Assembly: GCA_004213995.1 (NCBI GenBank)
Contig: SGZJ01000001.1
Span: forward strand, 62,001 to 126,000
Length of the DNA stretch: 64,000 bases
From: Flavobacteriales bacterium
GTDB lineage: Bacteria; Bacteroidota; Bacteroidia; Flavobacteriales; Flavobacteriaceae
Reading direction: 5' to 3'
Of the stretch, positions 2,865 through 43,342 are shown piece by piece. The notes under the pieces were generated by a model that saw only the letters and a program-made list of their open reading frames with translations, made no database searches and had not been told where the DNA came from. The position numbers were made by a program, and so were the translations under genes. The stretch's first letter is position 1. Every line of letters begins with the position of its first letter.

Positions 2865-5093
<2,229 letters not shown>

Positions 5094-5137
5094 TTATTTC
5101 TGCTGATTTAACGTTATGGGTATTTTTTTTAATCAAA

Positions 5138-5145
5138 CAAATATA
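5138..5145 (-). promoter_or_regulatory. -7 promoter box for icd
   Basis: The minus strand reads TATATTTG, an exact match to the Bacteroidota -7 consensus TAnnTTTG, about 45 bp upstream of the icd start. There is no clear TTG at the -33 position, only an AT-rich stretch, so the call rests on the -7 box and its placement just after the terminator. Confidence 0.55.
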
Positions 5146-5189
5146 TGAATTGCCTTTCTAAAAATTCTAATAAATATCAATTTACTATT

Positions 5190-5240
5190 AAAAAACAAAA
5201 GCCATATTATTACAGATAAATCTGAACTAATATGGCTTTT
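5190..5240 (-). terminator. Rho-independent terminator after the candidate RNA
   Basis: GCCATATTA at 5201-5209 pairs perfectly with TAATATGGC at 5228-5236, with an inner CAGA/TCTG stem. On the minus strand the hairpin is followed by TTTTGTTTTTT. It ends any transcript coming from rplS or from the promoter at 5655-5684 before icd. On the plus strand the hairpin is followed only by TTTT. Confidence 0.85.
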
Positions 5241-5649
5241 TATGAATTCGAATTTCAGTGGTATTTCAACCAATTATTTTCAAGCTTGCACTTTTCAATA
5301 ATTTTGAGGTATTCGACTCAATTGAAACATAAAGTAGTGTACTTTAGATTGCTCTTTGGTACCTTTATATCTCAGTTTAATTACAAGGTTATTCCTATTT
5401 AAGTATTTTATTTAATGCTAGTGGCTATAAATAAGCTTATTTAGGTTTTAAGTTTGTGTCCAGGCTTTCGCTGTGAATTTTAACTTTCATTTTTTCGGAT
5501 TTTACATGCTAGACTTGCGTTAAGTTTAGTAAACTTCCTCAAGATCTAAGAGATAAATCTCTTTTTAGATCGTAACCAGGTAATTGTTTCAAAGAACGTC
5601 TTTACAGAATCAATCATTTCGTAAACGAAACTGCATTAAGCCATGATTC
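5196..5649 (-). ncRNA. Candidate structured non-coding RNA of about 450 nt, unassigned
   Basis: The 657-bp gap between rplS and icd has no plausible protein gene, yet it is bracketed by a perfect-spacing promoter (5655-5684) and a strong terminator (5190-5240), both on the minus strand. The transcript would be rich in hairpins: CAGAATCA/TGATTCTG near the 5' end enclosing TTTCG-TTTA-CGAAA; GATCTAA with inner AGAGAT/ATCTCT; AAGTTT-ACT-AAACTT; the palindrome TAAATAAGCTTATTTA; AAAGTA-CAC-TACTTT; and TGGT-TGAAAT-ACCA. I could not match it to RNase P RNA (no GAGGAAAGTCC core), tmRNA (no tag frame, T-arm or CCA end) or 6S RNA. It could also be a long regulatory leader of icd, although icd appears to have its own promoter after the terminator. 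Confidence 0.6.
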
Positions 5650-5654
5650 TGACT

Positions 5655-5684
5655 CTAAAGTATAATATGATTTTAAATAAACAA
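5655..5684 (-). promoter_or_regulatory. Promoter of the candidate RNA
   Basis: On the minus strand TTG (5684-5682), exactly 19 bp, then TACTTTAG (5662-5655). Apart from one base in the -7 box this matches the Bacteroidota sigma-A promoter. It lies 67 bp downstream of the rplS stop codon and points into the gene-free region. Predicted transcript start is about 5648-5650. Confidence 0.7.
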
Positions 5685-5750
5685 GAAAAATTACAATAAA
5701 GATCTTAACTATTTGTAAACCAGTCTTATTAACAAATGTTTATAAACTGT

Positions 5751-6104
5751 TTACTTTCTTCTTACTTCTTTTATTCTTGCTTTTTTACCTGTAAGATTTC
5801 TAAAGTAGAAAATTCTTGCTCTTCTGACCTTACCAGCCTTATTTACTTCAATTTTTTGCAATGCAGGTAAGTTAATTGGGAATATTCTTTCAACACCAAT
5901 AGATCCAGACATTTTTCTAATTGTAAATGTTTCAGAACTACCACTACCTCTTTTTTGGAGTACAACTCCTCTAAAGAACTGTGTTCTAGTTTTATTACCT
6001 TCTTTAATTTCGTAATAAACAGTTATTGTATCACCAGCTCCAAAGTCTGGGAAAGTATTTTTTGGAACAAACTCGTCTTGTACAAATTTTACTAATGAAC
6101 TCAT
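5751..6104 (-). CDS. rplS: 50S ribosomal protein L19
   Basis: Ribosomal protein at the 30S-50S interface. The 117-residue product has the family core: GDTITVYYEIKEGNKTRTQ near residues 24-42, FRGVVLQKRGSGSSETFTIRK and the basic C-terminus ending ARIKEVRRK. The length is normal. It has a perfect promoter 72-101 bp upstream (6176-6205). trmD lies upstream on the same strand, the common trmD-rplS order. Confidence 0.98.
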   Translation of the reverse strand: MSSLVKFVQDEFVPKNTFPDFGAGDTITVYYEIKEGNKTRTQFFRGVVLQKRGSGSSETFTIRKMSGSIGVERIFPINLPALQKIEVNKAGKVRRARIFYFRNLTGKKARIKEVRRK

Positions 6105-10792: not shown

Positions 10793-11503
10793 CTAGTCTT
10801 TGTGAATTATAAAAATAGCAGGTTTTTTATCAATATTAATTTTATTTTTTTTCCATTCATTAACTGATAATGTTTTTATATACTCAGTACTTAAAGTTAT
10901 ATCACAAGCTATACAAAGATTAGTATCTCCACTTAAAGTTTTTGTTAGATCTTCTAACATCTTATTATTTCTGTATGGAGTTTCTATAAATATTTGTGAT
11001 TGATTTTGTTGATGAGAAGTTTTTTCTAGTTCTTTTATTTTATTTTTTTTGTCTGTTCTATCTATAGGCAGATAGCCATTAAAAGCAAAATTTTGTCCAT
11101 TTAAACCTGAGCTCATTATCGCTAGTAATATTGATGATGGACCTACAAGGGGTACAACTTTTATATTAGATTGATGAGCTATTTTTATTATATCAGATCC
11201 TGGGTCTGCTACACCAGGACAACCAGCATCTGAAATTAGACCAATGTTATTACCATTATGTATAGGGTCTAAAAAAGTGCTAAGTTCTTCATCTAAAGTG
11301 AATTTATTAATTAAATTGACTTTTAATGTGCTTTGGGCTTTTGAAGGTGAAATTTTCTTTATATATTTTCTACCTGCTTTTTCATTTTCAAAAAGGTAGT
11401 AATTAGTTGACTCAATTATTTTTTTAACTGAAATAGGGATAACCTCAAGAGGTTCATTTTCTCCAAGTGTATTCGGAATTAAATATAATATACCTTTGAT
11501 GAT
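10793..11503 (-). CDS. RsmI-type SAM-dependent methyltransferase with no AUG/GUG/UUG start
   Basis: Tetrapyrrole-methylase-fold enzyme of the RsmI (16S rRNA C1402 2'-O-methyltransferase) family. Reading codon by codon, the open frame runs from about 11539 and encodes, from 11503, the start region LYLIPNTLGENEPLEVIP, then ISDAGCPGVADPG and VVPLVGPSSILLAI, all typical motifs; 235-236 residues is the normal length for the short flavobacterial form. The first ATG in frame (11116) falls in mid-domain. Nothing between 11539 and the conserved start is ATG, GTG or TTG; ATC codons at 11503 and 11500 sit where homologues start, 8 nt after the dnaA stop. Either a rare start codon with coupling to dnaA, or a sequence error. 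Confidence 0.85.
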   Translation of the reverse strand: MIKGILYLIPNTLGENEPLEVIPISVKKIIESTNYYLFENEKAGRKYIKKISPSKAQSTLKVNLINKFTLDEELSTFLDPIHNGNNIGLISDAGCPGVADPGSDIIKIAHQSNIKVVPLVGPSSILLAIMSSGLNGQNFAFNGYLPIDRTDKKNKIKELEKTSHQQNQSQIFIETPYRNNKMLEDLTKTLSGDTNLCIACDITLSTEYIKTLSVNEWKKNKINIDKKPAIFIIHKD

Positions 11504-11511
11504 TGAGTTTT

Positions 11512-12939
11512 TTAGATAGAGAGTTTTTTCCCTAGATCTTCAACATATTTTCTGAATTGTTTGTCAGTAGAGGATAGATTGTCAACCGTTTTGCAAGCAT
11601 GCAAAACTGTAGCGTGATCTCTTTTTCCAATTTGTGAACCAATACTTGCCAAAGATGCTTTTGTGAATTTTTTTGCAAAAAACATAGCTAGTTGTCTCGC
11701 TTGCACTATGTGTCTTTTTCTTGTTTTTGATTGTAATGTGCTAACTTCCATTTGGAAATAGTCTGAAACAGTCTTTTGTATGTAATCTATTGATACTTCC
11801 CTTTTTGTATTTTTTACAAATTTCTCAACAATTTCTTTTGCAAGGGATAAAGTAATTTCTTTTCTATTAAAAGAAGCTTGGGCAATTAGAGATATAATTG
11901 CACCCTCTAATTCACGTACGTTTGTTTTGATGTTTTTAGCAACATATTCAATTACTTCTTCACTCATGTTTACACCATCACGGTATAATTTATTATTTAA
12001 AATTGACACCCTAGTTTCAAAGTCAGGGTTTTGCAGTTCTGCAGAGAGTCCCCATTTAAATCTAGATAATAATCTTAATTCAATATCCTGCATGTCAACT
12101 GGCGCTTTATCACTAGTTAAAATAACTTGCTTTCCATTTTGATGTAGATGGTTGAATATATGGAAAAATACATCCTGAGTTCCAGACTTACCTGATAAAA
12201 ACTGCACATCATCAACAATTAAAACATCAATAATTTGATAGAAATGAATAAAATCGTTTCTATTGTTTTTCTTAATAGCTTCAATATATTGTTGAGTAAA
12301 TTTTTCTGCGGTTATATATAAGACAGTCCTTTCTGGATATTTATCTTTTATGTCAATGCCTATTGAATGAGCTAAATGAGTTTTACCTAAACCAACACCT
12401 CCAAATATTAAAAGAGGATTAAATGAAGTTCCGCCCGGTTTGTTGGCAACAGCAATACCAGCATTTCTTGCAAGTCTATTTGAGTCACCTTCTAAAAAAT
12501 TATCAAAAGTATAGCTAGGGTTCAGTTGAGATTCAATTTTAACATTTTGAATTCCAGGAATAATAAATGGATTTTTTAGCTCGGGTATTTTTTTATTAAC
12601 ATAAGTAGTTGCATTTTGATAATTACTTGAGTTATTATTAGAACTTGGAATCTTTTCGGTAAATGGTTGTGTATTGCCGAAAGTATTTTCCATTTTAATA
12701 ATGTATACTAGTTTGGCATCATCTCCTAACTCTTTACTTAATGCTACTTTTAAAAGCTTCACATAATGTTCCTCTAACCATTCATAAAAGAATTTACTTG
12801 GAACTTGAATACTTAGTGAATTATCAGTTAACTTAACTGCCTCAATTGGTTCAAACCATGTTTTATATGCTTGAGGTTGAATATTGTCTTTTACAAACTT
12901 TAGGCAATTAGTCCAAACAGATATAGCTGTGATATTCAT
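11512..12939 (-). CDS. dnaA: Chromosomal replication initiator DnaA
   Basis: Binds DnaA boxes, opens oriC and loads the helicase. 475 residues from the ATG at 12939 (an in-frame TTG one codon earlier is less likely). Domain I is about residues 1-85, a low-complexity asparagine-rich linker follows, then the AAA+ domain with Walker A GGVGLGKTH and Walker B VLIVDDVQFL, and domain IV with the DnaA signature RDHATVLHACKTV. The gene is followed closely by the RsmI-type methyltransferase. I found no cluster of DnaA boxes in the 198 bp upstream. Confidence 0.98.
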   Translation of the reverse strand: MNITAISVWTNCLKFVKDNIQPQAYKTWFEPIEAVKLTDNSLSIQVPSKFFYEWLEEHYVKLLKVALSKELGDDAKLVYIIKMENTFGNTQPFTEKIPSSNNNSSNYQNATTYVNKKIPELKNPFIIPGIQNVKIESQLNPSYTFDNFLEGDSNRLARNAGIAVANKPGGTSFNPLLIFGGVGLGKTHLAHSIGIDIKDKYPERTVLYITAEKFTQQYIEAIKKNNRNDFIHFYQIIDVLIVDDVQFLSGKSGTQDVFFHIFNHLHQNGKQVILTSDKAPVDMQDIELRLLSRFKWGLSAELQNPDFETRVSILNNKLYRDGVNMSEEVIEYVAKNIKTNVRELEGAIISLIAQASFNRKEITLSLAKEIVEKFVKNTKREVSIDYIQKTVSDYFQMEVSTLQSKTRKRHIVQARQLAMFFAKKFTKASLASIGSQIGKRDHATVLHACKTVDNLSSTDKQFRKYVEDLGKKLSI

Positions 12940-13140
12940 CAACTGGTAATATTAATTGTAATTTAGTTAGCTTTTAATTTGATATCAGACTTTAGTTAAA
13001 CTATATAAGACTGAATGGCAAATATGTGAACAAAAAATGAAAAAAAAAAATTAAAAACGGTTGATTATTAACTTTTTTTTTTGCATGTTTCGTAATGGCT
13101 AAATTTAATAATTAATTTTTAAAAAATCTATATTTTTTTA
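12940..13140. promoter_or_regulatory. Divergent dnaA / thioesterase intergenic region
   Basis: About 200 bp, extremely AT-rich with runs of A and T at 13037-13060 and 13071-13083. The minus strand has CATATTTG (13026-13019), one base off the -7 consensus, which could serve dnaA. A single TGTTCACAT-like site (around 13024-13032, minus strand) weakly resembles a DnaA box. TATATTTT at 13129-13136 may serve the thioesterase gene. This is not enough to call an origin. Confidence 0.35.
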
Positions 13141-43205: not shown

Positions 43206-43235
43206 TTAACCTATTATAAATCATTTGTATATTTA
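43206..43235 (+). promoter_or_regulatory. Promoter of the SRP RNA gene
   Basis: TTA (43206-43208), 19 bp, TATATTTA (43228-43235): near-consensus boxes with exact spacing, placing the transcript start at about 43240, where the RNA helix begins. Confidence 0.65.
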
Positions 43236-43239
43236 CATT

Positions 43240-43333
43240 GGCAAGTCCTACACAACTAGCTCCTGTTTAATCCTCCAGAGTGGGAACACAGCAAAGGTAT
43301 ACGGTTGTAGCAGTGTGATGTAGGTAGCTTGCC
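43240..43333 (+). ncRNA. ffs: Signal recognition particle RNA, small bacterial (4.5S) type
   Basis: About 94 nt folding into one long hairpin: GGCAAG (43240-43245) pairs with CTTGCC (43328-43333) and CCTACA with TGTAGG. The apical region has the conserved SRP core with the asymmetric-loop/GNRA segment GTGGGAACACAGCAAAGG and the CTCCTGTTTAATCC strand opposite, matching the 4.5S consensus. A run of T at 43334-43342 terminates it. It binds Ffh to target membrane proteins. Confidence 0.92.
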
Positions 43334-43342
43334 TTTTTTTTT
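43328..43342 (+). terminator. Terminator of the SRP RNA gene
   Basis: The closing strand CTTGCC of the SRP RNA helix is followed directly by nine T residues, so the RNA's own terminal helix serves as a Rho-independent terminator. Confidence 0.75.

Follow-up and report, generated by a model that had tools for sequence, protein, structure and literature searches.

What occupies the interval between the housekeeping genes rplS and icd in the window, the whole 64,000-nucleotide stretch analyzed here from the genome of a small, marine-type member of the Flavobacteriales? This gap (5094-5750, 657 bp) contains no open reading frame of 80 codons or more and is, as the first-pass annotation had claimed, the sole gene-free stretch above 300 bp in the window. 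A second candidate stretch, 11117-11511, was rejected because it belongs to an open methylase frame, of which it forms the 5′ half and which lacks an ATG, GTG, or TTG start. That frame (TP_methylase, RsmI-like; 10793-11511, minus strand, ~238 aa) may start with a rare codon or contain an error in the sequence, and dnaA is found at 11512-12942 on the same strand, 6 kb from the RNA gene described below. The first-pass annotation had also read a promoter with TTG-N19-box spacing, a strong terminator before icd, and a separate -7 box for icd, and all three hold. The promoter is of the Bacteroidetes type, with a minus-strand TTG at 5684-5682 separated by 19 bp from TACTTTAG at 5662-5655; the terminator is a 13-bp stem, AAAAGCCATATTA/TAATATGGCTTTT (5240-5197), followed by a U tract; and icd has TATATTTG at 5145-5138. 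The features of the locus are the following.

5751-6104, minus strand: rplS (Pfam PF01245), the neighbor upstream of the ncRNA.
5698-5734, minus strand: compound upstream element, TGTTAATAAG-N4-GTTTACAA-N3-GTTAAGATCTTTA, from a fixed-spacing consensus of 72 loci.
5682-5684, minus strand: -33 element TTG, read from the sequence; family consensus tTtg.
5655-5662, minus strand: -7 element TACTTTAG, read from the sequence; 87 gaps share TAnaTTag as consensus at this position.
5191-5652, minus strand: ncRNA gene, ~460 nt, with limits from promoter, terminator, and alignment.
5606-5650, minus strand: P1, with outer stem 5650-5644/5612-5606 and inner hairpin 5631-5616, from the alifold structure.
5591-5603, minus strand: P2, hairpin UAAAG-ACGUU-CUUUG, the most conserved 5′ motif, boxA-like; family-wide AAAGnnACGTTCTTT.
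5379-5585, minus strand: P3 domain, with closing helix 5585-5573/5391-5379 and a multibranched center with CGAAAG-type loops.
5323-5374, minus strand: P4 hairpin domain, GAGAUAUAAAG.../...CUUUAUGUUUC, 19 pairs with five double-sided changes.
5243-5320, minus strand: P5 domain, UUUCAAUUGA..., the closing 3′ domain, from the genus fold, the crown structure, and the R1 model match at 5389-5240.
5190-5240, minus strand: terminator hairpin AAAAGCCAUAUUA...UAAUAUGGCUUUU and U tract, read from the sequence.
5138-5145, minus strand: icd -7 box TATATTTG, read from the sequence, kept in the family and downstream of the ncRNA terminator.
2865-5093, minus strand: icd, monomeric isocitrate dehydrogenase (Pfam PF03971), the neighbor downstream of the ncRNA.

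From these limits we infer a 5′ end of the ncRNA at 5650 ± 2. Between rplS and the -33 box, 72 loci share the consensus TGTTAATAAC-N4-GTTYATAA-N3-GTTRATWTYTAA, which consists of three GTTNATAA-like direct repeats spaced 13 and 11 bp. A 31-bp version of this element occurs in one or two copies per genome, usually one, in ten genomes, one copy being at the ncRNA locus in nine of the ten; in the genome G067, the sole match has two mismatches and lies away from the ncRNA (C1:3447085, L305). The element accompanies the ncRNA and is missing where the rplS-icd gap is short. The repeats are a likely operator or activator site, and their number, orientation, and spacing would suggest a dedicated DNA-binding regulator.

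The same strand and the fixed position between rplS and icd are what one would expect of a cis element, whether icd has a giant 5′ leader here or rplS a 3′ extension. This reading is very improbable. The RNA has its own promoter and terminator, and the icd promoter is downstream of that terminator; the upstream element and the -33 and -7 boxes are conserved alongside the RNA; and the order rplS-icd is kept in genomes that lack it.

No Rfam family accounts for the gap. A cmscan of the window gap against Rfam at gathering thresholds matched no family, and a relaxed search gave a best E of 0.28, covering the terminator hairpin only. The relaxed matches (RefA9, IMES-1, SCARNA7, and others) were at chance level or consisted of the terminator hairpin alone, and were rejected; a relaxed search of one crown RNA (the commonest form, see following) also gave chance-level matches only. 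Among 27 loci of relatives, Rfam at gathering thresholds placed nothing in the rplS-icd gap; apart from one 5S rRNA, the matches were to Flavo-1 and the L19 leader, both located upstream of rplS. Flavo-1 is just upstream of rplS in four loci (L056, 1265-1346; L050, 1288-1360; L211, 5546-5635; L266, 1156-1302) and was not detected in the window. OLE, ROOL, GOLLD, and other large Rfam RNAs, which we take to be contained in the Rfam library, reached chance level only in these cmscan runs (window and 27 loci at gathering thresholds, gap and one crown RNA relaxed). The first-pass annotation had judged by eye that RNase P RNA, tmRNA, SRP RNA, and 6S RNA do not fit and had proposed the comparison with Rfam; it was right, as all four are found elsewhere in the same genome. 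RNase P RNA (RF00010, 200.7 bits), tmRNA (RF00023, 141.4 bits), and 6S-Flavo (RF01685, 105.6 bits) do not match the gap and have their genes on other contigs, and the Bacteroidales small SRP RNA (RF04183) matches the window at 43232-43338, outside the gap. Because no Rfam 15 family matches, the rplS-icd RNA would escape annotation pipelines based on Rfam.

The ncRNA is carried by four other genomes of the genus, with 74-89% identity. Weak BLAST matches in other genera correspond to the terminator, at the same position after rplS; those in G042 and G029 are in unrelated contexts and were discarded. Post-rplS sequence was gathered from one genome per genus in 91 Flavobacteriaceae genera, and the ncRNA, scored by the upstream element or the P2 motif, is present in at least 68 of them. 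A short rplS-icd gap (99-319 bp) without the ncRNA is found in 7 genera, and 16 are ambiguous. Since rplS and icd remain adjacent in the seven genera without it, the ncRNA is an added unit. The largest sampled genus (g120), which we take to be possibly Flavobacterium, has gaps of 240-290 bp without the ncRNA in the three genomes checked. Conservation within the genus (74-89%) and throughout the family is well beyond chance.

A pattern scan for the two-part 5′ motif of the crown form in 84,980 genomes gave 112 contigs. The motif has rplS upstream and icd downstream in 78 loci and one of the two in the other 34; rplS is upstream in 103 of the 112, and icd is downstream in the remaining 9. Titles were seen for 80 of these contigs. 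Among the 80, the genus-named records (Gelidibacter, Algibacter, Psychroserpens, Formosa, Lacinutrix, Xanthomarina, and others) all belong, as we assume, to the Flavobacteriaceae, and Flavobacterium is absent from the titles. Some metagenome-assembled genomes among the 80 are titled only Flavobacteriales, Bacteroidia, Bacteroidetes, or, once, Chlorobiota. The contig titled Chlorobiota (L192), in which the crown RNA is flanked as usual by rplS and icd, is probably a mislabelled flavobacterial contig. The 5′ motif had no match in the viral contigs scanned. An order-wide search with the crown 3′-module model under strict filters gave matches confined to Flavobacteriaceae; as far as tested with these filters and this form of the model, the RNA is restricted to that family. 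The first-pass suggestion of a lineage-specific structured RNA stands as regards the lack of an Rfam match, the conservation, and the covariation, and it holds more widely than the first-pass annotation could foresee, as the lineage includes most Flavobacteriaceae genera and not just this organism.

The minus strand of the gap folds at -103.1 kcal/mol, compared with -74.5 ± 5.7 for shuffled sequences (z = -5.0). The plus strand also has z = -3.9, and therefore folding energy alone cannot fix the strand, which is fixed by the promoter, the terminator, and covariation. A single whole-RNA alignment of 36 genera brought different structural forms together and therefore yielded a poor consensus, a problem that disappeared once the clades were treated separately. 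The RNA has forms of ~360, ~460, and ~510 nt, according to clade. For the ~510-nt crown form, 25 genera were aligned with MAFFT and folded with RIBOSUM-scored RNAalifold, giving 138 pairs in 24 helices, with 91.2% of cells paired. Both-sided changes are found in 83 pairs, against 51.8 ± 3.8 in shuffled alignments and 40-46 in slid registers, and the covariation score is 0.369, against 0.212 and 0.08-0.10, respectively, the structure being derived from the alignment on which pairs were counted, which favors the unslid register. The size of the excess is far above what the shared alignment alone would lead one to expect. The model of the 3′ module matches 75 of the 80 listed motif loci, with both-sided changes in 39 of 47 pairs and 93.8% of cells paired, in loci picked by the 5′ motif and not by the 3′ module, some of which may come from genomes that also went into the model. 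The short form (~360 nt) has 109 pairs, 42 of them with both-sided changes, and the mid form (~460 nt) has 114, with 59. Their alignment energies of -101.9 (shuffled columns, -36.4 ± 4.9) and -158.5 (-39.7 ± 4.7) are ~13 and ~25 standard deviations below those of shuffled columns. The gaps of relatives, whose comparison the first-pass annotation had advised, thus contain the same RNA, with covarying stems in three forms as judged by pair counts against shuffles. At the level of sequence, these changes demonstrate selection on RNA pairing, and that we are dealing with a real, independent structured RNA is close to certain.

Selection on RNA pairing also bears on whether the gap might be conserved as DNA, as part of a replication origin. 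The proximity of dnaA, 6 kb off in the window and 5-31 kb off in many complete genomes, and the resemblance of TGTTAATAA to a DnaA box could be read in this way, and GC skew is uninformative here on origin position. Yet compensatory changes speak against origin DNA, no cluster of canonical DnaA boxes was found at the locus, and in three genomes (G088, G095, and G239) the RNA stays by rplS at a distance of hundreds of kb from dnaA. We regard an origin as extremely improbable.

All forms share an anatomy made of the 5′ hairpin P1, the hairpin P2, the long-range helix P3 around a multibranched center, the P4 and P5 domains, and the terminator. In six sequences of the genus, double-sided changes back P1, P3, P4, and several inner hairpins. 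The outer stem of P1 has one such change, no broken cell, and is visible across genera; P3 has 11 pairs in the genus, with three double-sided changes. The family equivalent of P3, AUUGUUUUUU/GAAAACAAU, is 98.4% paired in 25 genera, and that of P4 is GAAACAUUUU/AAAUGUUUC. P2 carries a near-invariant ACGUUCUUU. The terminator has 10 of its 13 pairs invariant across 25 genera, and its core, GCCAU/AUGGC, recurs in all three clade forms (crown, mid, short) and in the window RNA. Two further pairings were dropped: a helix of 5590-5586 with the terminator U tract in the genus fold, likely an artifact of the U run, and a kissing interaction between hairpins 6 and 18 (UGUA/UACA), whose loops are both nearly invariant, so that 100 sequences offer no test of covariation.

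The window RNA is a diverged branch of this family. The best match of the crown 3′ model in the gap (5389-5240) spans the whole model and has the right strand and the corresponding position; it scores 17.6 bits, equivalent to an E of 0.0012 within the gap and of 0.5 over 278 kb. Five loci of the genus (L003, L012, L002, L004, and L005) match the model at the same place with 14.5-21.6 bits, and a whole-genome search with a pre-filter missed the window RNA. The window has all five marks of the family: the place between rplS and icd, the upstream repeats, the P2 motif, the long-range helix, and the GCCAU/AUGGC terminator. By sequence comparison, homology of the window and crown RNAs is well supported by synteny, the upstream element, P2, the closing helix, and the terminator, together with the weak model match.

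The conserved P2 raises the possibility of a Nus-factor RNA, in which ACGUUCUUUA would be a boxA loading NusB-S10 on RNA polymerase, either protecting a long untranslated RNA against termination by Rho or making the RNA a decoy that sequesters NusB-S10. The window GUUCUUUGAAA agrees at 10 of 11 positions with the boxA consensus GYTCTTTAANA, which is gammaproteobacterial (PMC5725501); in relatives, GTTCATTRACATATTG, close to GTTCTTTATATAATTG, is found in the leaders and spacers of rRNA; and the element is near the 5′ end of the RNA, as expected of boxA. We nevertheless find this reading, though a serious rival, unlikely: boxA would account for at most 15 of ~460 nt, the local rRNA elements have A where the rplS-icd RNA has U at one fixed core position, and CUUU pairs with an upstream AAAG while the next AUUGUUUU is in P3, so that the likeness to boxA may stem from structure. 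In the rRNA loci of L132 and L135-L138, a flavobacterial boxA-like AAGTTCATTRACATATTG precedes 16S and recurs in the 16S-23S spacer.

The invariance of the terminator (10 of 13 pairs in 25 genera) is above the needs of termination and could instead point to a base-pairing sRNA, which would pair mRNAs through exposed conserved loops or through one arm of the terminator, AAAGCCAU, which is complementary to AUGGCUUU start regions. There is a precedent in Rfp18 of Flavobacterium psychrophilum, a structured sRNA reported to tune protease mRNAs (PMC9723704). But the conserved terminator arms pair mutually, and the size and the number of covarying helices far exceed the needs of seed pairing, and pairing with mRNAs is a rather doubtful role.

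The best explanation, and a reasonably probable one, is that the gene stands alone and encodes a large structured RNA, which would act in trans through its fold. A regulator binding the upstream repeats would control transcription of the rplS-icd RNA, the fold would keep it stable, and the RNA would then act in trans by its three-dimensional shape, either as a ribonucleoprotein or as an RNA-only dimer or oligomer, its role being that of neither an icd leader nor an rplS tail. That it acts through its fold specifically as a ribonucleoprotein or RNA complex has somewhat less than an even chance. The 24 helices and the closed multibranched core would place it, on the predicted structure, nearer to scaffold or catalytic RNAs than to short antisense regulators; the interior varies in size by clade (~360 to 520 nt), which loosens the idea of a single scaffold. 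More tentatively, one may envisage an unnamed RNA class, ancestral in much of the Flavobacteriaceae (a ribozyme, the core of a ribonucleoprotein, or a homo-oligomer), with a function new to bacterial RNA and under the control of a dedicated regulator that acts through a near-unique operator. With the rplS-icd RNA, the large structured ncRNAs gain a new, Flavobacteriaceae-wide family; none of the papers searched deals with the locus. Because it is conserved with compensating changes across most genera of the Flavobacteriaceae, a major family in the sea and on hosts, it would almost certainly have an important job. Carriers include the cultured genera Formosa, Algibacter, and Psychroserpens, and the alignment and structure ease the design of transcription, deletion, and probing experiments.

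Among known RNAs, Flavo-1 (RF01705) and the L19-Flavobacteria leader (RF03130) share the neighborhood in relatives but are upstream of rplS, with no overlap. 6S-Flavo is also free-standing and structured, in the same genomes, and has its separate 105.6-bit copy on another contig. The Rfp RNAs of F. psychrophilum (PMC9723704) are structured sRNAs from a genus of the same bacterial family, found by transcriptomics and without Rfam names; they include structured and conserved ones, of which Rfp18 is conserved within the genus Flavobacterium, and the main text of that paper gives no locus for Rfp18. Bacteria have few large ncRNAs whose folds are elaborate and conserved, and study of these has turned up surprising properties. 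Like OLE, ROOL, and GOLLD (PMC12286853), the rplS-icd RNA is large, many-helixed, and free-standing, its sequence modestly conserved and its pairs covarying extensively. In large ornate RNAs of this type, kissing loops join monomers (PMC12286853). In the rplS-icd RNA, the P2 loop has a self-complementary ACGU in 50 of 53 sequences (AACGUU in 39) and is broken in 3; such a palindrome might allow dimers, an argument weakened by the three exceptions and by common descent. Unlike OLE, ROOL, and GOLLD, the rplS-icd RNA is found only in Flavobacteriaceae, at a fixed chromosomal place, and its 5′ motif is unmatched in viral contigs. By analogy, we infer that these three RNAs are the ones that the rplS-icd RNA may most resemble in the way it works.
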